Shown here: positions 1,756 to 24,182 of the stretch, piece by piece | Layout of the letters: each line of letters begins with the position of its first letter | Position numbering within the stretch: the stretch's first letter is position 1 | Assembly: GCA_004195035.1 (NCBI GenBank) | Contig: SGBD01000001.1 | Coordinates: 124,001-188,000, forward strand | Origin: Candidatus Acidulodesulfobacterium ferriphilum | Lineage (GTDB): Bacteria > SZUA-79 > Acidulodesulfobacterales > Acidulodesulfobacteraceae | DNA length: 64,000 bases | Direction: 5' to 3' | The notes under the pieces: generated by a model | What the model was told of the DNA's origin: nothing | What the model saw: only the letters and a program-made list of their open reading frames with translations | The model's database searches: none | Translations under genes and position numbers: made by a program

Positions 1756-1789
1756 AAATTATTAAGTTTAACGGTATTTGATTATATGG

Positions 1790-1809: not shown

Positions 1810-1824
1810 GGCAAGCCAATAAAA

Positions 1825-2907: not shown

Positions 2908-2922
2908 ATAGTCTTATTAAAT

Positions 2923-4332: not shown

Positions 4333-4338
4333 GAGAAT

Positions 4339-6394: not shown

Positions 6395-6428
6395 TTTCCG
6401 CCGTCATTCCACGGAAGGAAGGAAATCA
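6392..6428. terminator. Inverted repeat between convergent genes
   Basis: TGATTTCC, which contains the der stop codon, pairs perfectly with GGAAATCA 21 bases later. The middle contains GTCATTCC, as in the GGATTCCCGC repeat family, so this is either a decayed repeat copy or a terminator hairpin without a clear U tract. It lies in the short gap between convergent genes. Confidence 0.4.
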
Positions 6429-6460
6429 GGGAGGGCTTTAACAGGAAACGCAAGAATGCT

Positions 6461-6757
6461 CTACTTAATTTTACCGGATAATTCGTCTAATTTGCTTTCT
6501 AATTTTTGAATCTTCCTTGTTAATTCTTCAATATCGTAAGTCGAAGCAAAATGCATTTCGTCAAGTAAAATATCGGCTAACTTTTCTTTTATAGACTTAA
6601 ATATAACGCCCGATTCATATTTTACGGTTTCGATGATTTGGTCGGCGGCTTCCCTGCTCTCCTCATCCGATATATCCACATAATCGTCCAATCTTTCCTG
6701 CGCTATAATCGAAAGACCTTTAAGTGCTTTAAGAACCAAATTTATATTGTCTGACAT
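6461..6757 (-). CDS. Small acidic coiled-coil protein, unknown function
   Basis: The 98-residue product is not recognised. It is helical and acidic, with no cysteines, no signal peptide and no membrane segment. The last 25 residues (from YDIEELTRKIQKLESKL) form a clear heptad coiled coil, a layout like phasin-type and UbiK-type accessory proteins that oligomerise through a C-terminal coil. A ribosome binding site (AAGGAAGG) precedes the ATG. It lies 84 bp downstream of the sdh-like genes and is separated from them by a weak inverted repeat, so it may be transcribed alone. It is not a recognisable SdhF or membrane anchor. Confidence 0.7.
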   Translation of the reverse strand: MSDNINLVLKALKGLSIIAQERLDDYVDISDEESREAADQIIETVKYESGVIFKSIKEKLADILLDEMHFASTYDIEELTRKIQKLESKLDELSGKIK

Positions 6758-6789
6758 CTGAACCTTCCTTTTTTTATTTATTTTTAAGA

Positions 6790-6816
6790 GGGCAAATTTA
6801 AGCCTGCCCCATTTTA
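6790..6816. repeat. Weak inverted repeat after the sdh operon
   Basis: GGGCA and TGCCC flank an AT-rich loop resembling the GGGTCTGATTT palindrome family found at 23.7, 26.7 and 27.1 kb. It follows the stop of the sdh operon on the minus strand and could act as a weak terminator. Confidence 0.3.
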
Positions 6817-6840
6817 TTATATTAAATATATATAAATATA

Positions 6841-7728
6841 TTAAATTTCGTTTTGTCTAACTTTTGCCATTACGGACCTGAGCGAAACATTATGCCGCGA
6901 GAACCCCATTTCGGCATAATCTCCCCCTAACGCAATCCCTATCAGCTGCGGAAGGTGTGTTATCGGCAGCGATAATTTTTTATTGATACTTCTGGCCGCA
7001 ACGGTCTGATATGTGTCAAGGCTTAAATGGCATAATGGACATGGGGTAACCATAACATCCGCCCCTTTCTCCTGAGCTTCAAAAATGGCGTTTCCCGCTA
7101 AAGAAGTGGATGTGGCTTCGTTGACAAGTATCGTTTGAAAACCGCAGCATTTTGTTCTTCGGACATAAGATACCGGTTCTCCGCCCAACGCCTTTATTAA
7201 TTCTTCGAATCCCTGCGGATTTTCGACATCGTCAAATTTAACAACGCTTGATGGCCTCAATATATGACAGCCGTAAAATGGGGCGATATTAATCCCTTTT
7301 AAACTTTTTACCGCTTTTTTCTTAAGATTATCAAAACCTATATCGTCCCTTATAGCATACAACAGGTGCTTTATTCTAACCTTGCCCGAATATTTAAGGC
7401 CGATTTGCGCAAGATATTCGTTTGTCTTATCTAAAGATTCCCTATTATTTATAAGCTCCTCGTTAACTTCGCTAAGGGTTAAAGTGCAGGTATTGCAGAT
7501 GGTTAATATGTCAAGCCCTTCCTTTTCCGCCAAAGCCAGTGTTCTGCCGTTTATAAAAAGCTTCAAATTTTTATCGAATCCGTCGATAACGCCTCCGCCG
7601 CAACATGAAGCCTCCGGCATAGGAATTAAATTAATATCCAACTTTTTTGCGACAAATTTGGTTGCGTTATCAAGTTCTTTTCCGCTTTCCTGCGCCACAC
7701 AGCCGGGATAATAAGCATAACTTATCAT
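6841..7728 (-). CDS. HdrB-like CCG-domain subunit of succinate dehydrogenase/fumarate reductase (SdhE type)
   Basis: The 295-residue protein has two CCG (cysteine-rich) domains. The first has YYPGC near residue 10, SCCGGG near 43 and CNTC near 79; the second has YGCH near 153, KCCGF near 195 and CPLC near 230. Such domains bind non-cubane [4Fe-4S] clusters in heterodisulfide reductase HdrB and in the E subunit of SdhABEF and SdhABE (MfrABE) complexes. It overlaps sdhB by 4 bp (ATGA), so a complex with SdhA and SdhB is very likely. It replaces the usual haem b membrane anchor; I see no membrane helix. Quinone-linked and thiol-linked fumarate reduction are both possible. Confidence 0.88.
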   Translation of the reverse strand: MISYAYYPGCVAQESGKELDNATKFVAKKLDINLIPMPEASCCGGGVIDGFDKNLKLFINGRTLALAEKEGLDILTICNTCTLTLSEVNEELINNRESLDKTNEYLAQIGLKYSGKVRIKHLLYAIRDDIGFDNLKKKAVKSLKGINIAPFYGCHILRPSSVVKFDDVENPQGFEELIKALGGEPVSYVRRTKCCGFQTILVNEATSTSLAGNAIFEAQEKGADVMVTPCPLCHLSLDTYQTVAARSINKKLSLPITHLPQLIGIALGGDYAEMGFSRHNVSLRSVMAKVRQNEI

Positions 7729-8720
7729 TTTTCCTCCAGATCTAATTCTTTATATGCAAGTCTTATATCGTCCATATCTTTGATTAATTTAAGCCTGATG
7801 GGAGGTATTTTCCCTTTTAATCCCGCGCCGAAAGCCATAGGCAAATCGTTGATAAGCCCTGTTATTCCGCCGGTATCGAATGCAACCTTAACTTCGTCGA
7901 GCCTTCCTGTTTCTTCGATGGATTTGGCTATCGAAATAATGTGTTTTGCGCCGCTCGAAAAATTAATGGAATTTTTTATCGCCTTCTCGTGCATTTTAAC
8001 TATTCCTTTCACCGGCGAAATCCCTTTTGGACAGAACTCTTCGCATGCCTGGCAATGAACGCAGTCCCACATGCCGTCGGGTTTTGAGCCGTTTACCAAG
8101 CGGGAGCCGTTTCTGTCGTTGTCTCTCGGGTCCTCGCTATACCTGTATAGCTTGGCAAGAGCGGCAGGTCCCAAATAATTTTTGTTTCCTACGACGCCGC
8201 CGCATTCGGAATAACAGCATTCGCACAAAATGCAGTTCGGGGTATCGTTATTTCCCGTTAAATTTTGAAATTCGGATTTATAATAAACAGGTTGTATTAT
8301 CTTTTCGCCTTCCTTTAAGGCATGAAACTTATGATGTTCTTCGTCCTCTCTTTGACCTAACAGGTATGGCCTGATCTCTTTGATTTTATCAAAAAAACTT
8401 TCCTGCTCGACGATAAGGTCCCTGACGACGGGCATATTGGCAAGAGGTTCCACATTAATTATGCCGAATTTTGTGATTTCAGGGTTTACCTGGGTCTTGC
8501 ACGCAAGCTTGGAAATGCCGTTTATCTTCATGGCGCATGAACCGCATATAGCGCTTCTGCAAGACCTTCTAAAGCTTAAAGTCCCGTCAATCTCGGATTT
8601 TATTTTCATCAAGGCGTTCAAAACGGTCATGCCGGGAAAATCCTGTACCGCATATTCTTTATAATACGGCTTGTCGTCAACCTCGGGATTAAATCTATAT
8701 GTCCTAACCTTAAATTCCAT
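7725..8720 (-). CDS. sdhB: Succinate dehydrogenase/fumarate reductase iron-sulfur subunit
   Basis: The 331-residue subunit carries three cluster motifs in the usual order. CRSAICGSC plus a cysteine 12 residues on binds [2Fe-2S]. CILCECCYSEC and CVHCQACEEFCP bind the two further clusters. It is longer than the typical 230-260 residues because of a tail of about 100 residues after the last motif; a C-terminal extension is also seen in some SdhABE-type enzymes. Electrons would run from the flavin in SdhA through these clusters to the HdrB-like subunit. It is translationally coupled to the downstream subunit and starts 69 bp after sdhA. Confidence 0.93.
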   Translation of the reverse strand: MEFKVRTYRFNPEVDDKPYYKEYAVQDFPGMTVLNALMKIKSEIDGTLSFRRSCRSAICGSCAMKINGISKLACKTQVNPEITKFGIINVEPLANMPVVRDLIVEQESFFDKIKEIRPYLLGQREDEEHHKFHALKEGEKIIQPVYYKSEFQNLTGNNDTPNCILCECCYSECGGVVGNKNYLGPAALAKLYRYSEDPRDNDRNGSRLVNGSKPDGMWDCVHCQACEEFCPKGISPVKGIVKMHEKAIKNSINFSSGAKHIISIAKSIEETGRLDEVKVAFDTGGITGLINDLPMAFGAGLKGKIPPIRLKLIKDMDDIRLAYKELDLEEK

Positions 8721-8732
8721 TATATTACCCCT

Positions 8733-8768
8733 TTATAGGGAACATGCTTAAGTCTGTCCCCTATATAT
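8733..8768. repeat. Degenerate palindrome between sdhA and sdhB
   Basis: TATAGGG and CCCCTATA arms enclose AACATGCTTAAGTCTGTC. The layout resembles the GGGTCTGATTT palindrome family but is decayed. It lies in the 69-bp sdhA-sdhB spacer and could form an mRNA hairpin that alters subunit stoichiometry. Confidence 0.35.
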
Positions 8769-8789
8769 ATTTAAAATTATCCAAAAATA

Positions 8790-10463
8790 TCAATATGTTC
8801 TCGGTTGAGGCTTAAACTTAGTAATAGAAACTTCGGAAAAATCGAATTTTATATTTCCGTTATCGCCTAAAGTTGCCAGAGTATGTTTAAGCCAATTTTC
8901 ATCGTCCCTTTCCGGATAATCGTTTCTATAATGCGCCCCTCTCGATTCTTTTCTTAATATGGCGCCATTTGCGATAACTTCTGCAATCAATAATATGTTG
9001 CTAAACTCAAAAGCCTCGACAATGTCGGTGTTAAACAGTTTTGATTTATCGTCCACCCCGATATTTTTGGCGCGTTCTTTAAGCTCTTCAATCTTTTTAA
9101 CGGCTTTTTTCATGGCCTTTTCTTCCCTGAAGACCCCGACATTAGCCCTCATCTCCTCTTGAAGTTCCGCTTTTAACAGCCCGTGTCTTTCTTTTCCGTT
9201 TGATTTTTTAAGTTTCTCGAAAATTTCCTCGTCCCTTTTTATGAGCGACTCATCAAATTTAGCAAATGCGGCGTCTTTTAAATATTCCGTAATATCGATA
9301 CCTGCTCTTCTTCCAAACACGACTGTATCTAATAAAGAATTGCCGCCGAGTCTGTTTGCCCCGTGAACGCTGACGCATGCAGACTCCCCTGCAGAATAGT
9401 AGCCTTCTATTGCGGTTCTACCGTTATAATCAGTTTTAATACCGCCCATAGAATAATGCATGCCCGGCCTGATCGGAATCGGCTCGTAAATCGGGTTTAC
9501 GCCTTCAAAATCTATCGAGAGCTGCATTATTTGCGGGAGCCTCTCCATAATCCTTTCTTTCCCAAGGTGGCGGACATCCAATAAAATAGCCCCGTCAACG
9601 CCTCTTCCTTCGTTTATTTCCGTCTGTTCGGCTCTTGCCACCACATCTCTGGGGGCAAGTTCCATTGCCTTAGGAGCGTATTTAGACATGAACCTGACGC
9701 CCAATGAATTTAACAGGTAAGCGCCTTCGCCTCTTGCACCCTCGGTGACTAATATTCCTGTACTTTTAAGGGTTGTAGGGTGAAACTGGACAAATTCCAT
9801 ATCCATAAGCGGAACGCCTGCCTTAATCGAAACAGCCATTCCGTCTCCGGTATTTATAAGCGCGTTTGTGTTGGACGAATAGACCTGCCCGTAACCGCCG
9901 GTAGCAAATAATACGGCCTTTGCGGCAATGCCTTCGAACTTCCCTGTTTTTATATCATAAGCAACTACGCCGCTGATCTTGCCGTTGTCAACGACTAAAC
10001 TTGTAACAAAATATTCATACAGTATTTTTGTTTTGTATTTAAGAACATTGTCAAAAAGCCCGTGAAGCATCATATGCCCGACCGCATCGGCATAGTAGCA
10101 TGAACGGGGAAAACTCTGCCCGCCGAACGGCCTCTGTGCTATGCCTCCAAGATCGTTTCTATTGAAAACTACGCCCATCCTTTGAAGCTCTAATATATTT
10201 GCGGGGGCTTCGCTTGTTAAAATTTCGATGGCATCCTGGTCCCCAAGATAGTCGCTTCCTTTAACCGTGTCAAAAAAATGGGACTCCCACGAATCGTTCT
10301 CGTCGAAAGCGGCGTTGACTCCTCCTTGCGCCGCTCCGGAATGAGACCTCGTTGGATAAACCTTGCTGACTATTATTGCGTCTATTCCTTTTTTTCTAAG
10401 CTCGACGCAGGCCCTTAAGCCCGCAAGTCCAGCCCCTACAATAACTACATCATGTTTTAACAT
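8790..10463 (-). CDS. sdhA: Succinate dehydrogenase/fumarate reductase flavoprotein subunit
   Basis: The 557-residue flavoprotein interconverts succinate and fumarate. It has the FAD-binding GAGLAGLRA at the N-terminus, RSHSGAAQGGVNAA (whose histidine is the covalent FAD site in this family), QFHPTT, VTEGARGEGAYLL, RPGMHYSMGG and GGNSLLDTVVFGRRAG. There is no twin-arginine or other signal peptide, so the subunit is cytoplasmic, unlike the periplasmic MfrA of Wolinella. It heads a three-gene operon with sdhB and the HdrB-like gene. The direction (TCA oxidation or fumarate reduction) cannot be read from sequence. Confidence 0.95.
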   Translation of the reverse strand: MLKHDVVIVGAGLAGLRACVELRKKGIDAIIVSKVYPTRSHSGAAQGGVNAAFDENDSWESHFFDTVKGSDYLGDQDAIEILTSEAPANILELQRMGVVFNRNDLGGIAQRPFGGQSFPRSCYYADAVGHMMLHGLFDNVLKYKTKILYEYFVTSLVVDNGKISGVVAYDIKTGKFEGIAAKAVLFATGGYGQVYSSNTNALINTGDGMAVSIKAGVPLMDMEFVQFHPTTLKSTGILVTEGARGEGAYLLNSLGVRFMSKYAPKAMELAPRDVVARAEQTEINEGRGVDGAILLDVRHLGKERIMERLPQIMQLSIDFEGVNPIYEPIPIRPGMHYSMGGIKTDYNGRTAIEGYYSAGESACVSVHGANRLGGNSLLDTVVFGRRAGIDITEYLKDAAFAKFDESLIKRDEEIFEKLKKSNGKERHGLLKAELQEEMRANVGVFREEKAMKKAVKKIEELKERAKNIGVDDKSKLFNTDIVEAFEFSNILLIAEVIANGAILRKESRGAHYRNDYPERDDENWLKHTLATLGDNGNIKFDFSEVSITKFKPQPRTY

Positions 10464-10524
10464 TTATAACCCCTATTTTTATAATCATTCTAAATTAAAC
10501 AGTTTAGTCCGGCAGTTCGGCACA

Positions 10525-10539
10525 GTATCGATTCGATAC
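10525..10539. promoter_or_regulatory. Palindrome upstream of sdhA (candidate operator)
   Basis: GTATCGA and TCGATAC form a perfect palindrome around one T, 62 bp upstream of the sdhA start. A second short palindrome, AATATTGCAATATT, is at 10610-10623. The rest of the 328-bp gap is AT-rich and holds no gene I can support. Confidence 0.35.
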
Positions 10540-10682
10540 CGAATAATTTTTCTATTTTATTACGATTTTTAAGACAATATAGATAAAATATTATAAATTA
10601 AACTAAGATAATATTGCAATATTTTTTTTCGAACTAAAACTACTGCGATAATTAGAAAATTATATAACTATTCAAAAAGAAA

Positions 10683-10733
10683 CCGCCGCTTTATTATCTA
10701 TGGGAAATTTAACCCTTATTTAATAAGCGGCGG
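10683..10733 (-). terminator. Hairpin terminator of the sox-like operon
   Basis: CCGCCGCTTTATT pairs with AATAAGCGGCGG with one bulged base, around a loop of about 26 bases. Read on the minus strand it is followed by TTTCTTTTT. It lies 59 bp after the stop of the ModA-like gene and ahead of the sdh promoter region. Confidence 0.55.
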
Positions 10734-10791
10734 GCTGGTATTTCTTTATTTTTATTGCCTTTTTTTAATCCATTTTCACTTGTTTAATGGA

Positions 10792-11601
10792 TTAAACAGG
10801 TGAAAATCCCCATTGTTTAAGTATTTTTTGACCCGTCTTGGATAATAATAGCTTCTCAAATTCCTTATTAAGTTTTTCTCTTCTATGACTTACAAAATGA
10901 AATGGAGATTTATTTAATATTGATATTGTAAATTTAGCTCTTGTATTGTATTGCGACGATATTGGTATTATATTGATATCCATGCCACATCTTTTGAGCC
11001 CTGCTAATTGCGACGCATAAAGTATGCCGATATCGGTTTTATCATTTTTCAATAATGGCATAATTAACGCCGGACTTAATAGTTGATTGGCATGATCGGC
11101 TATTTTATTAAACGCCCCCTGATGTCTTTTATTTATAGCTCTAAACATGTCCATCGTATAATGTCCTGCAGGGCTAAAGTTTGGCGATGCAACGGTCAAG
11201 CTAACATTTTTATTCGTTAATTTGCTAATTAGGTTAGATTTGGTAATTCCTGCCTGATTAGCATAAGGAGTGGCTGCAGCTAAGTAGTCATACGCAAATA
11301 CCTTGTATGAATTTATAGCGGCCACCTCCATTAAATCATCTTGATATTTTTCATTTGAAGCTATATATATATCCGGCGGTACACCGCCTAATATTCCAAC
11401 TCTAAATACACCTGATGCCGAAAACTCGTAATTCATTTTAACCCCGTGATGTTCTTTCTCAAATATATTGCCGATGATATGCAAAGGTTTTGCAACAGCA
11501 TCTGATGCAAAAATCCTTATTAAAGTGCGGGCATTTGCTCGAGGTATGTAAAAAAAAGTGCTAAATAAAATAAGGATAATTAAAAAAAATATTTTTTTCA
11601 T
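10792..11601 (-). CDS. ModA-like periplasmic oxyanion-binding protein, orphan
   Basis: The 269-residue product has a signal peptide (cleavage probably after RANA, residue 24) and the fold of the molybdate/tungstate-binding ModA/WtpA family. Family motifs are visible: FSASGVFRVGILGGVPPDIY matches the ASGxLxxQIxxGxPxDxF block, SPAGHYTMD matches PAGxY, and DIGILYASQ matches the late oxyanion-site block. No permease or ATPase gene is adjacent. It is the last gene of a cluster of periplasmic sulfur proteins. The ligand could be molybdate, but a sulfur oxyanion or a role as ligand-presenting partner of the nearby histidine kinase are open alternatives. Confidence 0.8.
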   Translation of the reverse strand: MKKIFFLIILILFSTFFYIPRANARTLIRIFASDAVAKPLHIIGNIFEKEHHGVKMNYEFSASGVFRVGILGGVPPDIYIASNEKYQDDLMEVAAINSYKVFAYDYLAAATPYANQAGITKSNLISKLTNKNVSLTVASPNFSPAGHYTMDMFRAINKRHQGAFNKIADHANQLLSPALIMPLLKNDKTDIGILYASQLAGLKRCGMDINIIPISSQYNTRAKFTISILNKSPFHFVSHRREKLNKEFEKLLLSKTGQKILKQWGFSPV

Positions 11602-11683
11602 TTTTCCTCCAAAAAGATATTTAGATAGTTAATGATGGGTATAATAAATTATATTTAAATTCTTTGAATTCACTGATATAGCT

Positions 11684-12181
11684 TTACCAACCTATATTAA
11701 AATAAGCATACCCTTGTTCCTCTTTTTTTATTATGTAGAATATACCGCTTGGATAAGCAACTCCAGCAAAAGGAAACAATTCATTTTTCTTAACATGAAA
11801 AGCAACTAAAGCCGCATGACATGCTAAAAATCTCACGCCTAATTCGCTTAACCTTTTAATTTTATTATAATTTGCTGCATCGTATTTTTTCATCAGATAA
11901 TGTATTGCAGGACCTGGAGCTACAACAACCTCTTTTACATGCACATTGTGGCCTAATGCGGACATAAGATTATGCGTCAGCTGTAGCGTAAAAAGCCCAT
12001 ATTTTTTTGGATTAAACGGAGCCTGCCAAACGGCTTTCAATGCGTGATGCTTAAAATATTGATAAGAGCGCCCGTTAACGGGAACGCTATTTTTTGCAAA
12101 TGCCCGTATAGGCAGTAAATACAATGTTATTGCGAACACCAATAACATTACAAATAAACTTAATTTTCTTAAGTTCATCAT
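11684..12181 (-). CDS. Periplasmic DsrE-family protein
   Basis: The 165-residue protein starts with a hydrophobic signal sequence ending near RAFAK (residue 30), then has the DsrE/DsrF/TusD-like fold: a strand VKEVVVAPGPAIHYL and the helix-strand-Cys block LSELGVRFLACHAAL. Cysteine 121 is the only cysteine and is placed where sulfur-carrying DsrE/TusD proteins bear their persulfide. The well-known DsrEFH and TusBCD carriers are cytoplasmic; here an export signal puts the protein with SoxYZ and a thioredoxin. A persulfide-carrier or sulfane-sulfur chaperone role is inferred. It is 70 bp after soxZ. Confidence 0.78.
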   Translation of the reverse strand: MMNLRKLSLFVMLLVFAITLYLLPIRAFAKNSVPVNGRSYQYFKHHALKAVWQAPFNPKKYGLFTLQLTHNLMSALGHNVHVKEVVVAPGPAIHYLMKKYDAANYNKIKRLSELGVRFLACHAALVAFHVKKNELFPFAGVAYPSGIFYIIKKEEQGYAYFNIGW

Positions 12182-12251
12182 AAATAATACCTCCTAAAAT
12201 TTAAAGTTAATTTAACTCTTAAGCAATTTTAATTACCATAAAGACAGCCCC

Positions 12252-12590
12252 TTAAACTACATTTATCATAACTGTTTTTTTATAAACATTATGATGGGTA
12301 TCGTACATAACGAACTCTAACGGCGCTTTTTTGTCCGCTTTTAAATAAAAAGCAAGAAATGGGTTTGCGGAAATACCTGTCCCATAATGACAGGTTGTGA
12401 TTAATTTTTTATCGTAATAAATATCAACCTTATTAATAATCCACATAGGTATTATTTTTCCTGTTTTTGGGTTTTTAACAAGACCTGTATCCATAGGATG
12501 CTTAGTTAAGCTCAACACCTTTATTATTTTTCCCATTTTCACCCTGCTGGGGACTCTAACTAAAATTGTGCCTAATTTCATATTTTTCAC
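12252..12590 (-). CDS. soxZ: Sulfur-oxidation carrier subunit SoxZ
   Basis: SoxZ pairs with SoxY to form the periplasmic carrier on which sulfur is bound during thiosulfate oxidation. The 112 residues match the family along their length, notably KHPMDTGLVKNPKTGKIIP near residues 31-49, INKVDIYYDKKL and the hallmark SANPFLAFYLKA. It has no signal peptide, as expected, because SoxZ is exported together with Tat-targeted SoxY. It follows soxY by 46 bp. No soxB, soxAX or soxCD lies in this window. Confidence 0.92.
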   Translation of the reverse strand: MKNMKLGTILVRVPSRVKMGKIIKVLSLTKHPMDTGLVKNPKTGKIIPMWIINKVDIYYDKKLITTCHYGTGISANPFLAFYLKADKKAPLEFVMYDTHHNVYKKTVMINVV

Positions 12591-12636
12591 ACTCCTTTGT
12601 AATATGTTAATGTTATAAAATATATTAACTCTAAAA

Positions 12637-13161
12637 TTAACAGCCGCCGACTGTCACTTTAACGAACTTTCTTCCACCATAAACGCTCCCATCGGAATAT
12701 TCGGCAAGGATCTGGACATAAGATTCCTGCTGAAGCTTTATCCTTGTGGATATATAAGCTTTCCCATTGGCAGGCGAAATGTCAAATGACCCTTGAACAG
12801 AGTGTGGATTATTAAGGTCGTATATGTAAAATGTTTTAAGATATTTTTGCGGCTTCATCGGTAGCCCTACCTCCATGGTTAGCGGAACCATAGCACCGTT
12901 TTGAGCAATTAACGGAAGCCTTATTTTTGGAATTAAAAGTTTCTCTTCAGGCGTCGGCGTGCCTTTAACCCATGTAACTTTTTTACCGTTAACTTCTTTA
13001 ACATAAGCTTTGTTGATTTTAATGTGTTTAATTAAGGTTTTTTTACGCTTGGCGAAGGCTTTTCCAGCTTCCCCTAAGATTACATCCGAACCAATTATTA
13101 CTGCAGTGCCTGCCATGGCAGTTTTCTTAATAAAATCTCTTCTCGAAACATGATCGTTCAT
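12637..13161 (-). CDS. soxY: Sulfur-oxidation carrier subunit SoxY, ending in GGC
   Basis: SoxY carries pathway intermediates on a cysteine at the end of a flexible C-terminal arm. The 174-residue product has a twin-arginine signal (SRRDFIKK near residue 5), and the SoxY domain includes PLIAQNGAMVPLTMEV. It ends VTVGGC and then TAA, so the carrier cysteine is the last residue; classical SoxY proteins end GGCGG. The next gene is soxZ, and upstream are a periplasmic thioredoxin and CcdA, which could keep the cysteine reduced. Confidence 0.9.
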   Translation of the reverse strand: MNDHVSRRDFIKKTAMAGTAVIIGSDVILGEAGKAFAKRKKTLIKHIKINKAYVKEVNGKKVTWVKGTPTPEEKLLIPKIRLPLIAQNGAMVPLTMEVGLPMKPQKYLKTFYIYDLNNPHSVQGSFDISPANGKAYISTRIKLQQESYVQILAEYSDGSVYGGRKFVKVTVGGC

Positions 13162-13243
13162 TCTAAAAACCTCCCTTGTTTTTAATCGTTAAGCTGTTTT
13201 AAATATAACATAAGATATATAATACTTGCTGTATTTCTCTATA

Positions 13244-13750
13244 TCATTGGGCGGGGCCCGCAAATTTCCTCAATGTTTCTACTTTATATCTGCCGCTGCC
13301 TATCCATTTTGCTACAAGCAAAAAGTCTTTTGCATTCCAGTATCCCGGCAAAACAAATATCTTTTTATAAGACGGGCTGAAAAAAATATCGTGCGGAACT
13401 CCCGTAACATGAAAAAGCGCCGCAATCTGCGCACCGGACATCATTTTTCCGTTAAAATATTCCGTGGTCCTGTTGCTGTATATGTCAACCATAACGGGAT
13501 GAAAATGCTTGTTAATATAACCTATAAAATCCTTGTCGGTAAAAACATGCTTATCCATCCTTATGCAGTAGGCGCATGTAGGATAATAGAAATGAACCAA
13601 AAAGTATTTTTTATCCGTCTTATTGCGCTTAATGGCAGCGCCAAGGCTCTCCCAGTGAATTTTATCGGAAGCGGAGGCTGTCTTAGGCAAGATTAATGTT
13701 AAAATACATAGTAAAAATAAAAATGCCGTTAATAATCTTTTTGGTTTCAT
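13244..13750 (-). CDS. Periplasmic thioredoxin-like protein (SoxW-like)
   Basis: The 168-residue protein has a signal sequence (residues 1-28) and a thioredoxin fold with redox motif CAYC (59-62) in FYYPTCAYCIRMD and the cis-proline loop near GVPHDIFF. This is the SoxW/thioredoxin_7-like type. It starts 13 bp after the ccdA stop and precedes soxY. In known systems CcdA passes electrons across the membrane to such a thioredoxin, which reduces SoxY, so the order ccdA-trx-soxY-soxZ suggests a dedicated reducing path. The SoxW assignment is from context. Confidence 0.85.
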   Translation of the reverse strand: MKPKRLLTAFLFLLCILTLILPKTASASDKIHWESLGAAIKRNKTDKKYFLVHFYYPTCAYCIRMDKHVFTDKDFIGYINKHFHPVMVDIYSNRTTEYFNGKMMSGAQIAALFHVTGVPHDIFFSPSYKKIFVLPGYWNAKDFLLVAKWIGSGRYKVETLRKFAGPAQ

Positions 13751-13762
13751 AATCTTTTTAAG

Positions 13763-14485
13763 TTATAGAGAGTTTATTATATGCACGGAAAGCAGTTCGA
13801 AATTTCCGGTAATGGTAAGAATGCCCATTAAGATTAAAAATATTCCGGAGACTACCGAAAATAATCTTAAATAGCCCTTTATTCTTTTGAAAAATGCCAT
13901 AAAATATGCCAGAAATAAGCCGGCCAAAATAAACGGCAGTCCGAGCCCGAGGCTGAAGACGGATAAAAGTTCGACTGCCCTCGTTAAAGACGAGCCGATA
14001 GAGGTATAAAGAACGATGGAAGCAAGGATAGGTCCTACGCACGGAACCCACCCCGCCGCAAACGCAACCCCCAGAAATAACGCCCCCAGTATATGCCCGC
14101 CCCTTTTTTTCCATGGAAGAATATTAACCTCCCTGCTTAAAAAACCCAACCTAAATAAGCCGAGGCAGTATAACCCGAAAAGAATAATTACGATGCCGCC
14201 GACTATTCTTACCGTATTTAGATTAGATTTAAGGAAACCGCTGAATATCGTAACGGAACCCATGCCGAGGGCTACGAAAACAATGGAAAATCCTATTACG
14301 AAAGCAAGCGATGCGGTAAAAACCGCTATCATATTCTTGTAATTTTTTTCGGAAGTAATGGTTTCGACGCTGACGCCGCTTATAAACGCGATATATCCGG
14401 GTATTATCGGTATGATGCACGGAGAGAAGAAAGCCAATAACCCGCCGAAAAAAGCAATACCGTAAGTTAGATTAAGATGAAACAT
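13763..14485 (-). CDS. ccdA: CcdA/DsbD-like transmembrane electron-transfer protein
   Basis: The 240-residue protein has six hydrophobic segments and the two conserved CcdA cysteines, in FFSPCIIPIIPGY (C23) and GWVPCVGPIL (about 148). CcdA moves reducing equivalents from cytoplasmic thioredoxin to periplasmic thiol proteins. It is the first gene of the cluster leading to thioredoxin, soxY, soxZ, DsrE and ModA-like. About 100 bp upstream is a consensus sigma-54 promoter, with two palindromes further upstream. A strong AAGGAGG lies 14 bases ahead of the start codon. Confidence 0.92.
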   Translation of the reverse strand: MFHLNLTYGIAFFGGLLAFFSPCIIPIIPGYIAFISGVSVETITSEKNYKNMIAVFTASLAFVIGFSIVFVALGMGSVTIFSGFLKSNLNTVRIVGGIVIILFGLYCLGLFRLGFLSREVNILPWKKRGGHILGALFLGVAFAAGWVPCVGPILASIVLYTSIGSSLTRAVELLSVFSLGLGLPFILAGLFLAYFMAFFKRIKGYLRLFSVVSGIFLILMGILTITGNFELLSVHIINSL

Positions 14486-14587
14486 AATTAATTTAGATGC
14501 CTCCTTAAAATGCTTATTATTGCTTATTATTACTGTTAATGATTTAAAATAATGATTTTAGGTTAAACCTTAAATTCATTATTATGT

Positions 14588-14603
14588 TGCAAAAATAATG
14601 CCA
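14588..14603 (-). promoter_or_regulatory. Sigma-54 (-24/-12) promoter of the ccdA-sox operon
   Basis: On the minus strand the sequence is TGGCATTATTTTTGCA, matching the RpoN consensus TGGCAC-N5-TTGC at all but one position, with exact GG-N10-GC spacing. Transcription would start about 12 bases past the GC, near 14577, leaving a leader of roughly 90 bases before ccdA. The neighbouring regulator belongs to the sigma-54-activator class, which makes a chance match less likely. Confidence 0.8.
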
Positions 14604-14651
14604 TTTTCAAGGCGCAGTTAAAATATGAATCCGATAGAATTCTGCCGCAAC

Positions 14652-14671
14652 ATTGGCCGTTTTGGGACAAT
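14652..14671. promoter_or_regulatory. Upstream activator site 1 (imperfect palindrome)
   Basis: ATTGGCCG, TTTT, GGGACAAT: the right arm is identical to that of the perfect palindrome 33 bp away, and the left arm matches it at 6 of 8 positions. Its centre is about 58 bp upstream of the -24 element. Confidence 0.65.
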
Positions 14672-14682
14672 TTTTAATTCCA

Positions 14683-14706
14683 TAATTGTCCCTTTTGGGA
14701 CAATTA
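14683..14706. promoter_or_regulatory. Upstream activator site 2 (perfect palindrome)
   Basis: Arms TAATTGTCCC and GGGACAATTA flank TTTT with no mismatch. The centre lies 33 bp (about three helical turns) from site 1 and about 91 bp upstream of the -24 element. Paired dyads at this spacing and distance are typical of enhancer sites for NtrC-type activators; the likely ligand is the regulator encoded immediately upstream. Confidence 0.7.
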
Positions 14707-14794
14707 ATATTTTTTTATTTTATATTTAATAATATTTTATACTATGTTACAACATATCACATTTTTTGTAAAAAATAAATATTTTATTTATTTT

Positions 14795-15008
14795 CCCAAA
14801 ATTGCCGATAGAAACCGTTAAAATGGCTTTAAAGTTATATGAACACTGGATTCCCGCTTTCGCGGGAATGACTTTGCAGGTTTTTAGGTTTTCACCCCAC
14901 GGGTGTCATTCCTGTGCAGGCAGGAAAGTTTAGGATAAACTTCACGAGACCAAAGGTCGAGAGCGAAGCGTTAATCCAGATTTAAAATTTTCTATCGGCA
15001 ATTTTGGG
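14795..15008. repeat. MITE-like element, 214 bp, 20-bp perfect terminal inverted repeats
   Basis: The left end CCCAAAATTGCCGATAG continues to 20 bases and is matched perfectly by the right end (14989-15008). Inside are CTGGATTCCCGC-TTTC-GCGGGAATGAC, GTGTCATTCCTG, and a block of about 60 bases (AAAGTTTAGGATAAAC to TTAATCCAGATTTA) shared with the 21.4-kb copy. The right end abuts the stop codon of the response regulator. There is no coding capacity. The rest of the gap (14486-14794) holds the sigma-54 promoter and activator sites. Confidence 0.85.
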
Positions 15009-16367
15009 TTATTTAAGCCTGAAAAGGCCGTATTTTTTCACTTTTGTTATTAACTGCTTTCTTGATATGCCGAGCGAAATCGCCGTTTTAGTTTGATTGT
15101 AATTATTTTTTTTAAGCGCATTTTTAATTAAATTAATTTCCACTTCATCGAGCTTTATATCGCCCTCGTCCGAACCTGTTAAGTTTTTATATGTTTGAAT
15201 CTGTTTGGAAAACATAGTCTTTGGTAAACTCGGCGGCTCGATTACATCCGAAGTAGCAACAACAACGGCTCTTTCGATAATATTTTCAAGTTCCCTTATA
15301 TTTCCCGGAAAATCGTAACTCATCAAAATATTAATCGTATCTTTCGATATGGCCTTAATATTTTTCTTATTAACGGCGCTATATTTTCCGACAAAGAAAT
15401 TGGCAAGGGCTGGGATGTCGTCTCTTCTTTCACGAAGCGGAGGTATTTTAAAATGTAAAACATTTATCCTGTAAAAAAGGTCTTCCCTGAATTTTTTTTC
15501 GATAACGTTTTCCTCCAAATTAACATTTGTAGCACATATAATTCTTGCATTAAGCTCTATTTTTAAGTTAGAACCGAGCCTTGAAAATTCTTTTTCCTGT
15601 ATTACCCTGAGGAGCTTTGCCTGCATCGCAAAGGGCATTTCCCCTATTTCGTCTAAAAAAAGCGAGCCGCCGTTTACAATCTCAAATTTGCCTTTTTGCG
15701 TAAATGACGCTCCGGTAAACGAACCTTTTTCGTGTCCGAATAGTTCGCTTTCCATAAGGTCTATCGGAATGGCGCTTAAATTTATCGGCACAAAATCACC
15801 TTTTCTTTCCGAAAGGAAATGTATTATTTTGGCTAAAACTTCCTTGCCTGTCCCAGTTTCGCCGGTTATCAGAACATTTGAAGCGGATTTGGAGGTTAAA
15901 ACGGCTTCTTTTAAAATTTCCTCCATTTCATTACTTTTAAATATAAAATCTTTTCTGATTTTTTCTATGTTTTCATTATGAAAGTCATCGCTAATCTTTT
16001 TGGGGTTTCTTTTTTGCAGGGCTATTTTTAAATTTTCGATTAGCCCGTCTATATCGACGGGCTTTGAAATAAAATCGTCGGCTCCGAGTTTCATGGCGTC
16101 AACCGCCTGTTTTATTGTCCCGAATGCCGTAATTACGATAAATATTACATCTTTATCGAATATTCTTATTTTGGACAAAAGGTCTATACCGCTCATCCCC
16201 TGCAATTTTAAATCGCAAAGTATAATGTCATGCCGCTTTTCGTTAAAGAGATTAAATCCTTCTTCAGCGCTCAGAGCAGTATCGACAAAAAAACCGCGGC
16301 TGGAAAGATTTAAGCTTACCGTTCTTAAAAGATTTTTTTCATCATCGATTAATAATATTTTCTTCAT
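15009..16367 (-). CDS. NtrC-family sigma-54-dependent response regulator
   Basis: The 452-residue protein has a receiver domain (acidic pocket DDE at 8-10, phospho-acceptor D52), a sigma-54-interacting AAA+ domain (Walker A GETGTGKE at 169-176; GSFTGA at 215-220, a one-residue variant of GAFTGA) and a C-terminal Fis-type helix-turn-helix (TKTAISLGISRKQLITKVKKYG). It activates RpoN promoters when phosphorylated. It overlaps its partner kinase by 4 bp. Downstream, beyond a MITE-like repeat, are two palindromes and a sigma-54 promoter, so the ccdA-sox operon is the likely target. Confidence 0.93.
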   Translation of the reverse strand: MKKILLIDDEKNLLRTVSLNLSSRGFFVDTALSAEEGFNLFNEKRHDIILCDLKLQGMSGIDLLSKIRIFDKDVIFIVITAFGTIKQAVDAMKLGADDFISKPVDIDGLIENLKIALQKRNPKKISDDFHNENIEKIRKDFIFKSNEMEEILKEAVLTSKSASNVLITGETGTGKEVLAKIIHFLSERKGDFVPINLSAIPIDLMESELFGHEKGSFTGASFTQKGKFEIVNGGSLFLDEIGEMPFAMQAKLLRVIQEKEFSRLGSNLKIELNARIICATNVNLEENVIEKKFREDLFYRINVLHFKIPPLRERRDDIPALANFFVGKYSAVNKKNIKAISKDTINILMSYDFPGNIRELENIIERAVVVATSDVIEPPSLPKTMFSKQIQTYKNLTGSDEGDIKLDEVEINLIKNALKKNNYNQTKTAISLGISRKQLITKVKKYGLFRLK

Positions 16368-17773
16368 TTAACGATACCCGACCCGACGGCTTTAGGAATT
16401 ACAAGCACAAACGCGGTTTTATTATCTTTGCTGTAAACATTTATCGTTCCCCCGTGAAGTTTAATTATGCGCATAGATATCGGAAGACCGAGCCCGGAAC
16501 CGTTTTTTTTCGTCGTAAAAAACGGCTTTAATATCTTTTCGATATTCTCTTCGGGTATAACCTCGCCGTTATCGATAATTTCGATATTTATAAAATCGCC
16601 TCTTAAAACCGTTTTTATTTCAATAATTTTATTCCCTGCGTTATATGTTTTATCCATTGCGTTTATTATTAAGTTTAAGATAACCTGTTTAAGCAATTCC
16701 GGGTCTCCCTTAATGACAGGCAGGTCTTCTTGAAACTCTTTTATTAATTTTATATTTAAATTGTCGATTTCTAATTTTAATATTCTTACCGAATCGTCAA
16801 TCAGCCTGTTTATATTTACCGGAACCAGTTCGGGATTTCTTTGTCTGGAAAAACTTAAAAAATCTACGGTCATTTTATCGAGTCTTTTTACTTCATTATT
16901 TATTATATTGGTAACCTCTAATACTATCTTATTTCTTGTTTCGTGGGATATATACGCGTTTGCGGAAGAAATAATATATATGGCGTTTTTAACCTCATGC
17001 GCTATATTAGCCGACATTTCACCCATAATCGCCATACAATTCAATTCGTTCTTTTCTTTATTCACTAAATCAATCTTTTTCGTATAATCCTCGATTGACA
17101 GCGCCATCGAGCTAATCGCGCTTATAACGCTTCCGATTTCGTCGTTTAACCTTTTCGTGAAACTTATCTTATAATCGCCGTTTTTTATCTTTTCGATATT
17201 TTCCTTTATCTCGAGCAAGGGCTTTGTGATAATAACAGTTATAATATAAAACATAAAAAGCCCTAAGGCTATAAAAATGAGCGCTATCAGCGAAAACCTG
17301 ACCCCGACCCAAAAAACACGGTTATTAGTGGCTTCAATCTCTTTTTTTAAATTAAATTTAATTGCAACAAGCCCCAATATTTTGCCGCCATAGTCAATAT
17401 TTCTGATTAAAACCGAACCGTCTTTTTTTTTATCGTTAACGGGATTATGCGCGGCATAAAGCTTTCCGCTATTCATTATTAGTTTCCCTTCCGGATTATA
17501 TATCGAAATACCCTTGATTATGCGGTAATTTTTTATATTAGACTTTAAATATTTTTTCAAAAACCTAATTTTATTGAAATACAAAGAGTATTTTATTTCC
17601 GAGATTAAGATTCTGGCTATCCTTGTATTTTTTAAATAATGTCTGCCTGATAATGTTTTGTAAATAGTATAAAGAAAGACGGCGTCGCTTAGAAAAATAG
17701 TGAAGAAAAAAATAGCAAAAGCGCTTATTAATATTTTCCATTTAATGCTTAAATTTTTAATAAAATGTTCCAT
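16364..17773 (-). CDS. Membrane sensor histidine kinase (NtrB/ZraS-like)
   Basis: The 469-residue protein has a first membrane helix at about 13-36, an extracytoplasmic sensor region of about 115 residues (36-150, no cysteine), a second helix at about 155-182, HAMP at about 182-235, and HisKA with the phospho-acceptor in IAHEVKNAI (H259). The ATPase domain has NLIINAMDKT, DNGEVIPEENI and GSGLGLPISMRI. The signal it senses is unknown; since its probable target encodes periplasmic sulfur proteins, a sulfur compound or the ModA-like protein are candidates. It overlaps the regulator gene by 4 bp. Confidence 0.92.
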   Translation of the reverse strand: MEHFIKNLSIKWKILISAFAIFFFTIFLSDAVFLYTIYKTLSGRHYLKNTRIARILISEIKYSLYFNKIRFLKKYLKSNIKNYRIIKGISIYNPEGKLIMNSGKLYAAHNPVNDKKKDGSVLIRNIDYGGKILGLVAIKFNLKKEIEATNNRVFWVGVRFSLIALIFIALGLFMFYIITVIITKPLLEIKENIEKIKNGDYKISFTKRLNDEIGSVISAISSMALSIEDYTKKIDLVNKEKNELNCMAIMGEMSANIAHEVKNAIYIISSANAYISHETRNKIVLEVTNIINNEVKRLDKMTVDFLSFSRQRNPELVPVNINRLIDDSVRILKLEIDNLNIKLIKEFQEDLPVIKGDPELLKQVILNLIINAMDKTYNAGNKIIEIKTVLRGDFINIEIIDNGEVIPEENIEKILKPFFTTKKNGSGLGLPISMRIIKLHGGTINVYSKDNKTAFVLVIPKAVGSGIVK

Positions 17774-19538: not shown

Positions 19539-20987
19539 TTAGAATGCGAAGTCAAGACCCGTGCCTACTGTATCAGCCTGGCTTTTGTTGGTTATTAAAT
19601 ATGCGAGATAAAGATGCGCGTTGTAAGCCAAGTTATATTCAACATTAATGGCAAACGCGTCTTTTATACCTTCATCACAAACACCGGCAAGAGATGTATT
19701 TGTATAAACACTGCCATATAATTGACTATTAACACATGTGCTTGTGGCATTACCGCCAGCCGCTTCTGCTAAATCTTTATGTGTCCATGAATACTGGGCA
19801 TAGTCGGCGGAAAGCATTAAGCCGTTACCTATCTGCGGCAATAAATATCTGCCATAAACTTCAAAGGTTGAATAGCCATTGCTTGAATTAGAACTACCTA
19901 CAATAGTGCCGTCAGGAAGTGTTTCATTTGTAGATGATAGAGATGGATTCCCATATGGATGGTTGTCACTCTGAACCATGTATGTCAAACCCAATTCATA
20001 AATGTCATTTGCAAGGTCAACATCCACGCCATTTACAGTAACCCTATTAGTCCATGATCCAGCATTTCCATTTAAAGGTTCGGCAACCGTTGCGCCGTAA
20101 TATCCAAACTCAAGCTGACCCATAGGAATTGGATAATATTCTTTTAACTGATAAGAATATTCCATTGCATTAGATACAGATTTATCTGTGGTCACATGAT
20201 TTACCAACTTGGTGTAATACGCTGCTTCGCCTGTTCCCGCCCCTGCATCATTCGTAACCGTTACTTTATACCACAAATGATAGCCCGGCGTTCCGTAAAG
20301 GGCAAAACCTGCGTTTCTGGCATGAATTAAAGATGCACCTTCTCCACCACCCTGGTTATCAACAGTTAATCCCTGCCCGTTTCCTGCCGGCCCGCCAAGG
20401 ATATAGAACGGCATCTGCCTGTAAAAATACGGGCTTGCAGTTGTTACCTGACCAAGTTTTAAATTAAACAGGTGCGACGGAGCGCCAAAACCGGAGCCTA
20501 AGCCGTTGATAGACGCGAATATCTGTTTGCCGTTAATATTACCCTTTCCTGCGCCAAATCCATAATGAACATAAAAAGATAAGGAATCCGCAAGAGGCGT
20601 ATATAACTTAAATGCGCCCGCATCGACCACATCTACGCTTGCGCCGAATGCGTCGGTTGCCGAACTGACATTTTCATTGGTGTAGTGCTGATAGCTGATA
20701 ATCGGCTCGACCATTATCGGAATCGGCCATGGGTTCGGAAGGCTCAAACCTTCGGTTATCTGCGTTGCATCAGACGGAGTTCCGTTTGTTCCCGGAAGTC
20801 TGAAGCCGTTTCTCCAGAATGCCCTGCCGAACGGGTTTAAGTTTGGAAATACCGTATGGCAAACTGCGCATGAAAAATGATACTTTTGAGCAAAAGCGGG
20901 AATTGCGTTTGCTTTTTTCGGCGCGATAGCAAAGGAGAACGCCAAAATAAACAAGGCAACCATAGTTACTACTAATTTCTTTTTCAT
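19539..20987 (-). CDS. Outer-membrane monohaem cytochrome-porin fusion (Cyc2-like)
   Basis: The 482-residue protein has a signal peptide (to about residue 28), a single c-type haem motif CAVCH at 40-44 followed by FPNLNPFGRAFWRNGF, then about 420 residues of alternating beta-strand character ending in phenylalanine (GTGLDFAF), the usual signature of outer-membrane barrels. This architecture, one N-terminal haem joined to a porin, is that of the Cyc2 family of Fe(II)-oxidising proteins and related cytochrome-porins. Assignment to true Cyc2 is tentative. It is a single-gene unit with its own terminator and a long upstream region. A role in exchanging electrons with extracellular iron is inferred. 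Confidence 0.82.
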   Translation of the reverse strand: MKKKLVVTMVALFILAFSFAIAPKKANAIPAFAQKYHFSCAVCHTVFPNLNPFGRAFWRNGFRLPGTNGTPSDATQITEGLSLPNPWPIPIMVEPIISYQHYTNENVSSATDAFGASVDVVDAGAFKLYTPLADSLSFYVHYGFGAGKGNINGKQIFASINGLGSGFGAPSHLFNLKLGQVTTASPYFYRQMPFYILGGPAGNGQGLTVDNQGGGEGASLIHARNAGFALYGTPGYHLWYKVTVTNDAGAGTGEAAYYTKLVNHVTTDKSVSNAMEYSYQLKEYYPIPMGQLEFGYYGATVAEPLNGNAGSWTNRVTVNGVDVDLANDIYELGLTYMVQSDNHPYGNPSLSSTNETLPDGTIVGSSNSSNGYSTFEVYGRYLLPQIGNGLMLSADYAQYSWTHKDLAEAAGGNATSTCVNSQLYGSVYTNTSLAGVCDEGIKDAFAINVEYNLAYNAHLYLAYLITNKSQADTVGTGLDFAF

Positions 20988-21062
20988 AACTTTCCTCTCT
21001 CTTAAAGTTAAAATTAAAAATTAATAAAAAAACAGAACTAACAAACATTTATTGAACTGCAA

Positions 21063-21096: not shown

Positions 21097-21429
21097 ATTT
21101 GTTAATCTCTTTCTCCCTCTCCACCTCCTTATATTTAATATTTTAATTTATTTTTCCAAACTTTAATTCCGTGTTTTAACCGTTTTTGTTTCCTCATATA
21201 TTACATCTACAGGCTTAAATACACCGTTATAAGCAATATATGATTTAATATATATAATATATATACTTAAATTTATCGCTTGTCAATACTTAAAATAAAA
21301 TTGTTAATTAATCTATATTGATATATAGATTAATATATCGGTAATATCGTTATTTTTCTTTTATGACTTAATTATATTACCTATTTTGTTAATGTCAATA
21401 CCTTTCTTTAACCCTTTCTTTAACCCTTT
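21097..21429. other. AT-rich upstream region of the cytochrome-porin gene
   Basis: No gene is visible here. At 21307-21334 is a 12-bp-arm palindrome (ATTAATCTATAT, TGAT, ATATAGATTAAT) that could be an operator. At 21401-21435 there are three tandem copies of the 12-base unit CCCTTTCTTTAA, the last running into the MITE-like element. Confidence 0.45.
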
Positions 21430-21905: not shown

Positions 21906-22352
21906 TTACGCATGCTCGAGTAAATCGTGTTCGTTCTCGTCATGCTCCGGCGTTTCCACCCTGCCTATCGGTCCCTTACCCGCCTTTCTTGCCTTGTAAT
22001 CCTCCACGGCAAGATGAAGCGCGTCCGCGGCAAGATTGGAGCAGTGCATCTTAACGGGGGGAAGCCCGTCTAAAGCCTCGGCAACAACCTCGTTAGATAC
22101 TCTTTCCGCCTCTTCGAGCGTCTTTCCTTTTACAAGTTCGGTTACCATTGAACTTGTTGCGATAGCCGCTCCGCAGCCGAATGTTTTAAATTTTATATCG
22201 TCGATTTTATCGTCTTTAACCTTTATATATATTTTCATTATATCGCCACAGGTCGGATTGCCGAGTTCCCCTACCCCGTCCGCATTTTCGATTTCTCCCA
22301 CATTTCTTGGATTTTGAAAGTGATCCATAACTTTTTCCGAATATACCGGCAT
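21906..22352 (-). CDS. iscU: Fe-S cluster scaffold IscU/NifU-N
   Basis: The 148-residue scaffold keeps the three ligand cysteines, in GNPTCGD, TFGCGAA and KMHCSNLA, and has LPPVKMHC, where the family's chaperone-binding LPPVK motif sits. A tail of about 20 acidic and histidine-containing residues (VETPEHDENEHDLLEHA) extends beyond the usual end. It follows the second nifS by 43 bp and precedes tusA. It should build [2Fe-2S] or [4Fe-4S] clusters. The sulfur donor is in question because the adjacent NifS lacks the PLP lysine. Confidence 0.93.
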   Translation of the reverse strand: MPVYSEKVMDHFQNPRNVGEIENADGVGELGNPTCGDIMKIYIKVKDDKIDDIKFKTFGCGAAIATSSMVTELVKGKTLEEAERVSNEVVAEALDGLPPVKMHCSNLAADALHLAVEDYKARKAGKGPIGRVETPEHDENEHDLLEHA

Positions 22353-22395: not shown

Positions 22396-23592
22396 TTATA
22401 CTTTATTTTTCTTTTTAACCTCTTCGTAAAGGGGCGACATTTCTCTTAATTTATTTACCACCCCCGGAAGCTCCTTTACAAAATAAGCGGCGTCTTCCAG
22501 CGAATTGTCCTCGCCCAAAGAAATAAGCAGCGAGCCCTGCGCGAGCGCAGGGTCAACCCCTATCGCGCTTAACACATGGGACGACTTTAAAATTTTAGAT
22601 GTGCAGGCTGAACCGCTTGCCACCATAATTCCGTTATTGTTCAGCCACATCAGCATCGATTCGCCCTCGATATATTTAACCACGAAGTTTAAATTGTTAG
22701 GGAGTCTTTTTTCGGGATGCCCGTTAAGATATACCTCGTCTAAGGAACCCAATACCCCGCTTACTATATCTTTTTGAATAGGTAAAAGATGCGCCGTCCT
22801 GTCCTTTAACTCTTTTTTTGCCAGTTCGCATGCAACGCCGGCGCCCGCAACGGCAGGAACATTCTCCGTGCCGGCCCTTCTTCCGAACTCCTGAATGCCG
22901 CCGTCTATTAAAGGCATTATCCTGATTCCCTTTTTAAGATAGAAAAGCCCCGTTCCCTTCGGACCGTAAAATCTGTGGGGAGCGGCCGAAAGCATATCGA
23001 CGCCCATCTCTTTGACATCGGTTTCGATAAAGCCGCATGAAGTATTTGCATCGGTGTGCATGTACGCCGCCGAGTTTTCATGAACTATTTTGGAAATTTC
23101 TTTAATATCCTGAATGGTGCCGATTTCGTTCGATGCGTGCGTTATGCTGACAAGAATCGTATCCTTTCTTAAAGCGTTTTTGACGTCCATAGGGTCAACC
23201 GAACCGTATTTGTCAACAGGGACTTCGCTGACCTCAAAACCAAGTTTGGCCAAAGCCTTAACGGCGTTTAAAACGCTAAAATGTTCTATTTTAGAAACGA
23301 TTATATGTTTTCCTTTATCCATTCTGGCAAAAGCCGTTCCTTTTATCGCAAGATTGTTAGATTCGGAACCGCTCCCCGTAAATATCACCTCGTTACCCGC
23401 CGCATTTAAAAGCTCCGCCGCCTGAAGCCTTGCCTTGTTCAACGCCTCTCTCGGCTCGTCTCCCAGCGTGTGAATGCTCTGCGGATTGCCGTATTCCTGC
23501 ATAAAAAAGGGCTCCATAGCCTCTTTTACCTCCGGTCTCATCTTAGTTGCCGCAAAATGGTCAAAATTTATTATCTTCACTTTTGCCTCCAA
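22396..23592 (-). CDS. NifS/IscS-like protein lacking the PLP lysine (K to R)
   Basis: The 398-residue protein is a clear cysteine desulfurase homologue, with SKIEHFSV, ASNEIGTIQ, RAGTENVPA and an active-site loop cysteine C330 in ASGSACTSK. But the motif holding the Schiff-base lysine reads APHRFYGPKG: arginine 207 (codon AGA) is at the lysine position. The residue equal to E. coli Gln183, usually in DAVQ, is threonine 184 (HTDANT). Activity as a normal desulfurase is therefore doubtful. Archaeoglobus fulgidus IscS also lacks the lysine and works with IscU as a cluster-assembly partner. The order nifS-iscU-tusA supports a sulfide-using assembly role (inference). Confidence 0.9.
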   Translation of the reverse strand: MEAKVKIINFDHFAATKMRPEVKEAMEPFFMQEYGNPQSIHTLGDEPREALNKARLQAAELLNAAGNEVIFTGSGSESNNLAIKGTAFARMDKGKHIIVSKIEHFSVLNAVKALAKLGFEVSEVPVDKYGSVDPMDVKNALRKDTILVSITHASNEIGTIQDIKEISKIVHENSAAYMHTDANTSCGFIETDVKEMGVDMLSAAPHRFYGPKGTGLFYLKKGIRIMPLIDGGIQEFGRRAGTENVPAVAGAGVACELAKKELKDRTAHLLPIQKDIVSGVLGSLDEVYLNGHPEKRLPNNLNFVVKYIEGESMLMWLNNNGIMVASGSACTSKILKSSHVLSAIGVDPALAQGSLLISLGEDNSLEDAAYFVKELPGVVNKLREMSPLYEEVKKKNKV

Positions 23593-23792: not shown

Positions 23793-24182
23793 CTACTTTA
23801 ATGAGTCTAAATAGGACGCAAGCTCAAAAAGCTCTTTTTTGGAAAGCATTTTGTGGTCAGGCATAATAGCCATATATGTTTTGCCGTTTATTTTCACCAT
23901 GGAACCTGGTTTAAAATGCTTTGCGGGCGTCGCAATTTGGACTTCAAGCCATTTAATAGAATGTTTAAGCGCTCCTTCTTTCGAAAGGTCGGGACCGACA
24001 TTGCCGCCCTTCCCGTTTATTGCGTGGCAGGCAAAACAATCGATGCCGTTTTTGTGGGAATGAATGAGTTCGGCTCCAAGCTGCGCGGCCGATAACTTAA
24101 CAGGAGCAGTAATTGCGTGAACGACGATATAACCTATAACAATAACAAGAACGATAAAAATAATCGTAAAACCCTTTTTCAT
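23793..24182 (-). CDS. Membrane-anchored monohaem cytochrome c
   Basis: The 129-residue protein has an N-terminal hydrophobic helix (about 4-24) with no obvious cleavage site, then one cytochrome c domain: haem motif CFACH at 49-53, GKGGNVGPDLS, and methionines in MAIMPDHKML as candidate sixth ligands. The fold matches class I cytochrome c. It should face the periplasm and carry electrons, possibly linked to the outer-membrane cytochrome-porin 3 kb away (inference). It follows apt by 18 bp and ends at a palindromic terminator. Confidence 0.9.
   Translation of the reverse strand: MKKGFTIIFIVLVIVIGYIVVHAITAPVKLSAAQLGAELIHSHKNGIDCFACHAINGKGGNVGPDLSKEGALKHSIKWLEVQIATPAKHFKPGSMVKINGKTYMAIMPDHKMLSKKELFELASYLDSLK

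Follow-up and report, generated by a model that had tools for sequence, protein, structure and literature searches.

A lineage-specific cytochrome-porin of the Cyc2/Cyt572 type in Candidatus Acidulodesulfobacterium ferriphilum, with a likely role in iron oxidation

A gene on the minus strand of the DNA analysed here, a 64,000-nucleotide stretch of a contig of the uncultured acid-mine bacterium Candidatus Acidulodesulfobacterium ferriphilum (the window), raises the question of whether this bacterium, as some others do, draws electrons from Fe(II) through an outer-membrane cytochrome-porin. A sequence-only reading had placed a Cyc2-like protein at 19539–20987, and the open reading frame found there coincides with these limits exactly, running from an ATG at 20987 to a stop at 19539 and encoding a protein of 482 amino acids that reads AIPAFAQKYHFSCAVCHTVFPNLNPFGRAFWRNGF. 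The protein begins with a signal-like leader (residues 1–28; 20904–20987), recognized by eye from a basic start, a hydrophobic stretch and an AxA and ending in ANA, for which the AlphaFold2 model gives a helix at residues 2–19. The segment after the leader, IPAFAQKYHFSCAVCHTVFPNLNPFGRAFWRNGF, holds the only CXXCH of the protein, CAVCH (residues 40–44; 20856–20870), in agreement with the single N-terminal haem motif that had been claimed. This motif lies in the cytochrome part (residues 29–66; 20790–20903), and a long strand-rich part then extends to the C-terminal LDFAF. On the same strand, a ribosome-binding-site-like AGAGAGGAAAG (20990–21000) stands just 5' of the ATG and is kept upstream of orthologs, and a conserved AAGGAGGTG (21122–21130), seen in an upstream alignment of 17 sequences about 135 bases 5' of the start codon, is possibly a leader element.

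Orthologs were found in 28 of the 30 genomes of the host family, own genome included, and the frame is therefore no chance occurrence; the two genomes with no match are 86% (G020) and 59% (G029) complete. Among the members of the family is Candidatus Acididesulfobacter, of the order Ca. Acidulodesulfobacterales known from acid mine drainage, and contig SGBB01000015.1 of Candidatus Acididesulfobacter diazotrophicus AP1 carries an ortholog. No Pfam or NCBIfam model matched the porin at E values up to 1, phmmer against solved structures returned chance-level matches only, a plasmid search with the protein gave no match, and an Rfam scan of the 64-kb window found none.

As set out by Keffer et al. 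2021 (PMC8406198), Cyc2 carries AXPXFAR[QK][TY], a CXXCH and a PXL, is at least 365 amino acids long and has a porin barrel, which those authors likened to OprP and OprO porins; sequences lacking PXFAR[QK][TY] were discarded in that work. In the window protein, a PXL stands four residues after the haem motif (CAVCH-TVF-PNL), the length exceeds the bound, and the predicted model has an OprO/OprP-like barrel of 16 strands. The first motif reads AIPAFAQKY, with Gln replacing Arg, so that the screen of Keffer et al. would have missed this protein. The Arg site was counted in 144 proteins, from which partial, duplicate and short ones had been dropped beforehand. It holds Gln or Glu in all 31 host-family proteins (28 Q, 3 E), and Arg is present in 108 of the 113 proteins outside the family and absent in 5, figures that serve as a rough guide, because the 80 named loci had been found with a pattern demanding Q, R or E at this site and the outside-family count therefore also leans on profile-found rows. 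The protein thus shares with Cyc2 of Acidithiobacillus ferrooxidans and Mariprofundus, as these have been described, an N-terminal CXXCH, a PXL, more than 365 residues and 16 predicted strands, but has FAQKY where they have FARQT. MtrAB, MtoAB and PioAB, in which by description a 26-strand barrel holds a multihaem cytochrome that is a protein of its own, are of another build, since the window protein has one haem motif, fused to a barrel of 16 strands.

Loss of the motif Arg might be taken to mean that the protein is an ordinary porin whose haem site is a relic and which transfers no electrons. However, conservation is highest in the haem part, with a mean pairwise identity of 96% over residues 28–66 versus 64% in the barrel among 26 aligned host-family proteins, CXXCH is kept in 31/31 host-family sequences, and the porin is accompanied by a cytochrome c gene (see below); we consider such a decayed function very improbable.

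The AlphaFold2 model, built from 37 aligned sequences, has a mean pLDDT of 70.3 and a pTM of 0.73, and predicts a barrel spanning residues 91–480 (19548–20717, minus strand) with 16 strands, the strand count that had been proposed as a check. Solved porins match the model barrel with Z of about 23 and are all tied, OprP (2o4v, Z 22.9) and OprO (4rjw, Z 22.6) standing level with porins of the OmpF and OmpC types; among the matches listed by Foldseek and VIA there was no solved cytochrome-porin. The haem motif is flanked by three short helices in a low-confidence stretch of the model.

In a phylogenetic tree built from 87 proteins over 405 columns (a hand-picked subset of the 144 proteins, with SH-aLRT supports only), the host-family porins form one clade (support 100) on a long branch. 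This clade adjoins the FARKY cytochrome-porins (97), which occur in Ignavibacteria, Bacteroidota, Myxococcota and other groups and which, judging from their motif alternatives, would correspond to cluster 3 of Keffer et al. It is set apart from the Gallionellaceae sequences (100), genome-derived stand-ins for cluster 1 whose cluster status follows the text of Keffer et al., and from the rus-operon group (98), whose reference is a Cyc2 in locus L195 that has a rusticyanin-like gene about 7 kb downstream in the same orientation, the rusticyanin match being below the curated cut-off. Forcing the host family together with the Gallionellaceae cost 6.8 log units (AU p 0.357) and with the rus group 7.5 log units (AU p 0.349); as neither grouping was rejected, the deep position of the clade is not fixed. 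With the cytochrome part only and six long-branch rows dropped, the host family is still one clade, in a tree with too few columns for placement. A phylogeny outside Cyc2, among cytochrome-porins of other function, had been named as evidence against the sequence-only reading, and on this point the outcome is divided: the protein does not join the Gallionellaceae or rus groups, but its nearest relatives are FARKY proteins and not cytochrome-porins of an assigned other function. The Cyc2-like identity is supported as to the fused monohaem cytochrome-porin architecture, and is not supported by the motif Arg or by a grouping with Gallionellaceae and rus-operon sequences in the tree; we class the window protein as a variant of the Cyc2/Cyt572 type specific to its lineage.

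The FARKY proteins are the nearest group by profile score as well, home-made profiles giving the window protein 161 bits (FARKY), 66 bits (rus-type) and 45 bits (Gallionellaceae). These scores were rejected as a membership test, because the broad FARKY profile gives a Gallionellaceae Cyc2 row 159 bits. When 361 genomes from across the domain, all outside the family, were sampled, 50 had a match to a host-family profile, nearly always through the cytochrome part. Another genome scan used a 9-row alignment, a mixed one of 24 rows being too diverse.

The monohaem cytochrome that had been reported about 3 kb away is real: a gene for a 129-residue cytochrome c (23793–24182, minus strand; Pfam Cytochrom_C, 35.3 bits) lies upstream of the porin, and a cysteine desulfurase of IscS/NifS type (22396–23592, minus strand) stands between the two in this genus and in AP1, together in the window with an IscU/NifU-type scaffold protein identified by Pfam and locus comparison (21906–22352, minus strand). 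A homolog of this cytochrome c (75–99% identity) is found upstream of the porin on the same strand in 16 of 22 host-family loci (L081–L102), and three others of the 22 are truncated by contig ends (L089, L090, L096). It is directly adjacent to the porin in nine loci, with Apt before it; in the others, IscS and IscU stand between cytochrome c and porin or elsewhere. The diverged porin of L101 comes right after a small cytochrome c of another kind (about 40% identity), L098 has only a weak cytochrome c match 5.5 kb away, and no homolog of the window cytochrome c was found at locus L100. No rus operon adjoins the window porin. The cytochrome c at 23793–24182 is thus the likely periplasmic electron partner of the porin, a physical partnership that we infer from the gene pairing.

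The conserved neighbours of the porin in the host family are cytochrome c, Apt and IscSU, and not sox genes. The sulfur-cycle genes noticed in this bacterium are present: the window encodes SoxZ and SoxY, and another part of the genome has a dsrA match above the cut-off; the link between iron and sulfur metabolism at which the sequence-only reading hinted has nothing in the sequence behind it beyond this co-presence. A substrate other than iron, such as a reduced sulfur compound, Mn or a redox mediator, with the porin serving that extracellular donor or acceptor, would suit the presence of SoxYZ and dsrA, the weak score that the SoxX model gives the partner cytochrome c (35.5 bits, with a cut-off of 61) and the spread of the FARKY relatives over many phyla. 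Yet sox genes occur near the porin in only one of the 22 loci (L084, about 7 kb off), 10 of the 22 holding at least 7 kb on that side, and Tan et al. 2019 (PMC6776010) found the order to follow ferrous iron in acid drainage; we regard this alternative as doubtful. The sulfur block of the window (10792–14485) contains SBP_bac_11, DsrE-like, SoxZ, SoxY, thioredoxin-like and DsbD-like genes, and L084 keeps the SoxZ, SoxY, thioredoxin-like and DsbD-like genes within its 17 kb.

The FARKY cytochrome-porins keep the Arg that the window protein lacks, and differ from the host family in their neighbours. A CXXCH gene lies within 2.5 kb of the porin in 39 of 56 FARKY loci, and in many (L103–L160) a gene for a cytochrome of 4–5 haems (about 460 amino acids) ends 3–46 bases before the porin, whereas the host-family partner is a monohaem cytochrome c. 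Four scanned multihaem neighbours match Cytochrome_C554/C7 models, one of them also passing the NapC/NirT cut-off. Such neighbours would also fit electron export, with the porin handing electrons from respiration on to Fe(III) or another external acceptor, and Tan et al. suggested Fe(III) respiration under anaerobic conditions for the order as well. Against export, PF03264 (NapC/NirT type) matches 0 of 30 host-family genomes versus 15 of 31 others, so that the family seems not to use the NapC/NirT route to or from quinol, which would speak against electrons leaving by that route. In addition, no multihaem neighbour was found in the host-family loci whose gene lists were examined, and the conserved partner has a single haem. 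We rank export as the main rival to an Fe(II) inlet and hold it to be unlikely.

Iron oxidation has already been proposed for this order by Tan et al., who found cyt572-like genes in all four genomes of Ca. Acidulodesulfobacterales and a correlation of the order with ferrous iron; in AP4, one cyt572-like gene ranked within the top 20 by transcript level. That the order has such an iron-oxidising cytochrome is thus not a new idea. Since searches of the host-family genomes found one cytochrome-porin in AP1, the cyt572-like gene of AP1 probably belongs to the same gene family as the window porin, and the other cyt572-like genes of the order probably do so too. Cyt572 of Leptospirillum, assigned to cluster 3 and reported to oxidise iron (Keffer et al. 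2021, PMC8406198; McAllister et al. 2020, PMC7029218), is by description likewise a cytochrome-porin of an acidophile; no sequence of it turned up in the collections searched.

We therefore favour, at a probability of roughly 55%, the reading that the porin carries electrons from Fe(II) to the encoded cytochrome c as a variant of the Cyc2/Cyt572 type. The protein would form a porin in the outer membrane, closed at the periplasmic mouth by the small cytochrome c domain that it carries itself; Fe(II) in solution would enter the pore and hand one electron to the single haem, from which it would pass to the periplasmic monohaem cytochrome c of the same gene block and then to oxidases such as the cbb3-like enzyme. 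The genome encodes cbb3-like (a PF00115 match, with a CcoO-like gene by eye), bd and NorB-like genes. We infer Fe(II) as the donor from family resemblance, habitat and published expression, and the steps after the haem from gene pairing; the direction of flow and the placement of the haem are likewise presumptive. In favour of the Fe(II) inlet are the near-invariant electron-transfer part beside a drifting barrel and the conserved cytochrome c neighbour, the diverged copy of L101 again lying beside a small cytochrome c. Against it may be set the replacement of the diagnostic Arg throughout the host family, the apparent separation of the family in the tree from tested and from neutrophilic iron oxidases, the possible electron export by FARKY relatives, and the low predicted confidence of the cytochrome part. 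A role of the window protein in iron oxidation is likely; a tuning of the haem to acid by the Arg change is a guess. If the protein does oxidise Fe(II), a widespread and largely uncultured order of acid mine drainage would link its iron and sulfur chemistry by way of a cytochrome-porin that escapes the strict published motif, and surveys of iron oxidation based on motifs would undercount. The fixed pairing with cytochrome c makes a two-gene unit, small enough for expression tests.

The genome (1.87 Mb, 97.3% complete) encodes two cytochrome-porins, and the second is the more surprising lead. This 555-residue paralog, 52% identical to the window protein, lies at about 805–807 kb of contig C1 of the genome (G000), in locus L033, whose relevant stretch (912–16956) corresponds to C1 at about 797.9–814.0 kb. 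It is followed by DsbD_2-type and YtkA-like genes, and the same stretch encodes NosZ (TIGR04244, 766 bits, over the cut-off), NosL, a NosR-like protein, cytochrome bd, an Rrf2 regulator, an iron-sulfur repair protein, a small cytochrome c and a NorB-like oxidase. In a second species of the genus (L100, 3995–17346), genes named by likeness to L033 comprise bd, Rrf2-like, porin, DsbD_2-type, YtkA-like, NorB, small cytochrome c and NosZ. In two species of the genus, the second cytochrome-porin thus has cytochrome bd to one side and NO/N2O-reductase genes to the other, a link that rests on two related genomes. NosZ was found in 4 of the 19 host-family genomes searched; no cytochrome-porin was seen in the 19 kb examined around NosZ in G005, and the contig of G007 is too short to show the neighbourhood. 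Near the distant FARKY porins, no homologs of NosZ, NosL or NorB were found in 58 loci (L103–L160), where the clear single matches are cydA, some 3 kb from the porin in L125, and CcoN, some 1 kb from it in L149, and the weak ones are to NosR, a TauE/DsbD-like protein and the cytochrome c of the window. The genome search gave no match for NirK and, for NirS, a partial Cytochrom_D1 match only (26.8 bits). In the parts of the literature on Cyc2 and nosZ that were consulted, no report of a gene neighbourhood of porin and N-oxide reductases was found, though Cyc2 and nosZ appear together in some papers, PMC8114936 among them.

One speculative reading, to which we give little credence, is that the lineage has two dedicated iron ports, the window copy feeding cytochrome c and oxygen reduction and the second copy NO and N2O reduction, with the Arg change tuning the haem for acid. 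If so, N2O would be removed at low pH directly at the expense of Fe(II), in a bacterium that has dsrA but neither a NirK match nor a convincing NirS. With the second copy beside Nos and Nor genes, it becomes testable whether Fe(II) drives the reduction of N2O at low pH.

Several porin copies, fragments and copies with in-frame stops were seen elsewhere in the host family (contigs G008:C36 and G025:C86, and genome G006), where the gene seems often to duplicate and decay. The diverged copy in L101 (8001–9407) carries, besides its N-terminal CXXCH, a second one (CSGCH) inside the barrel part.
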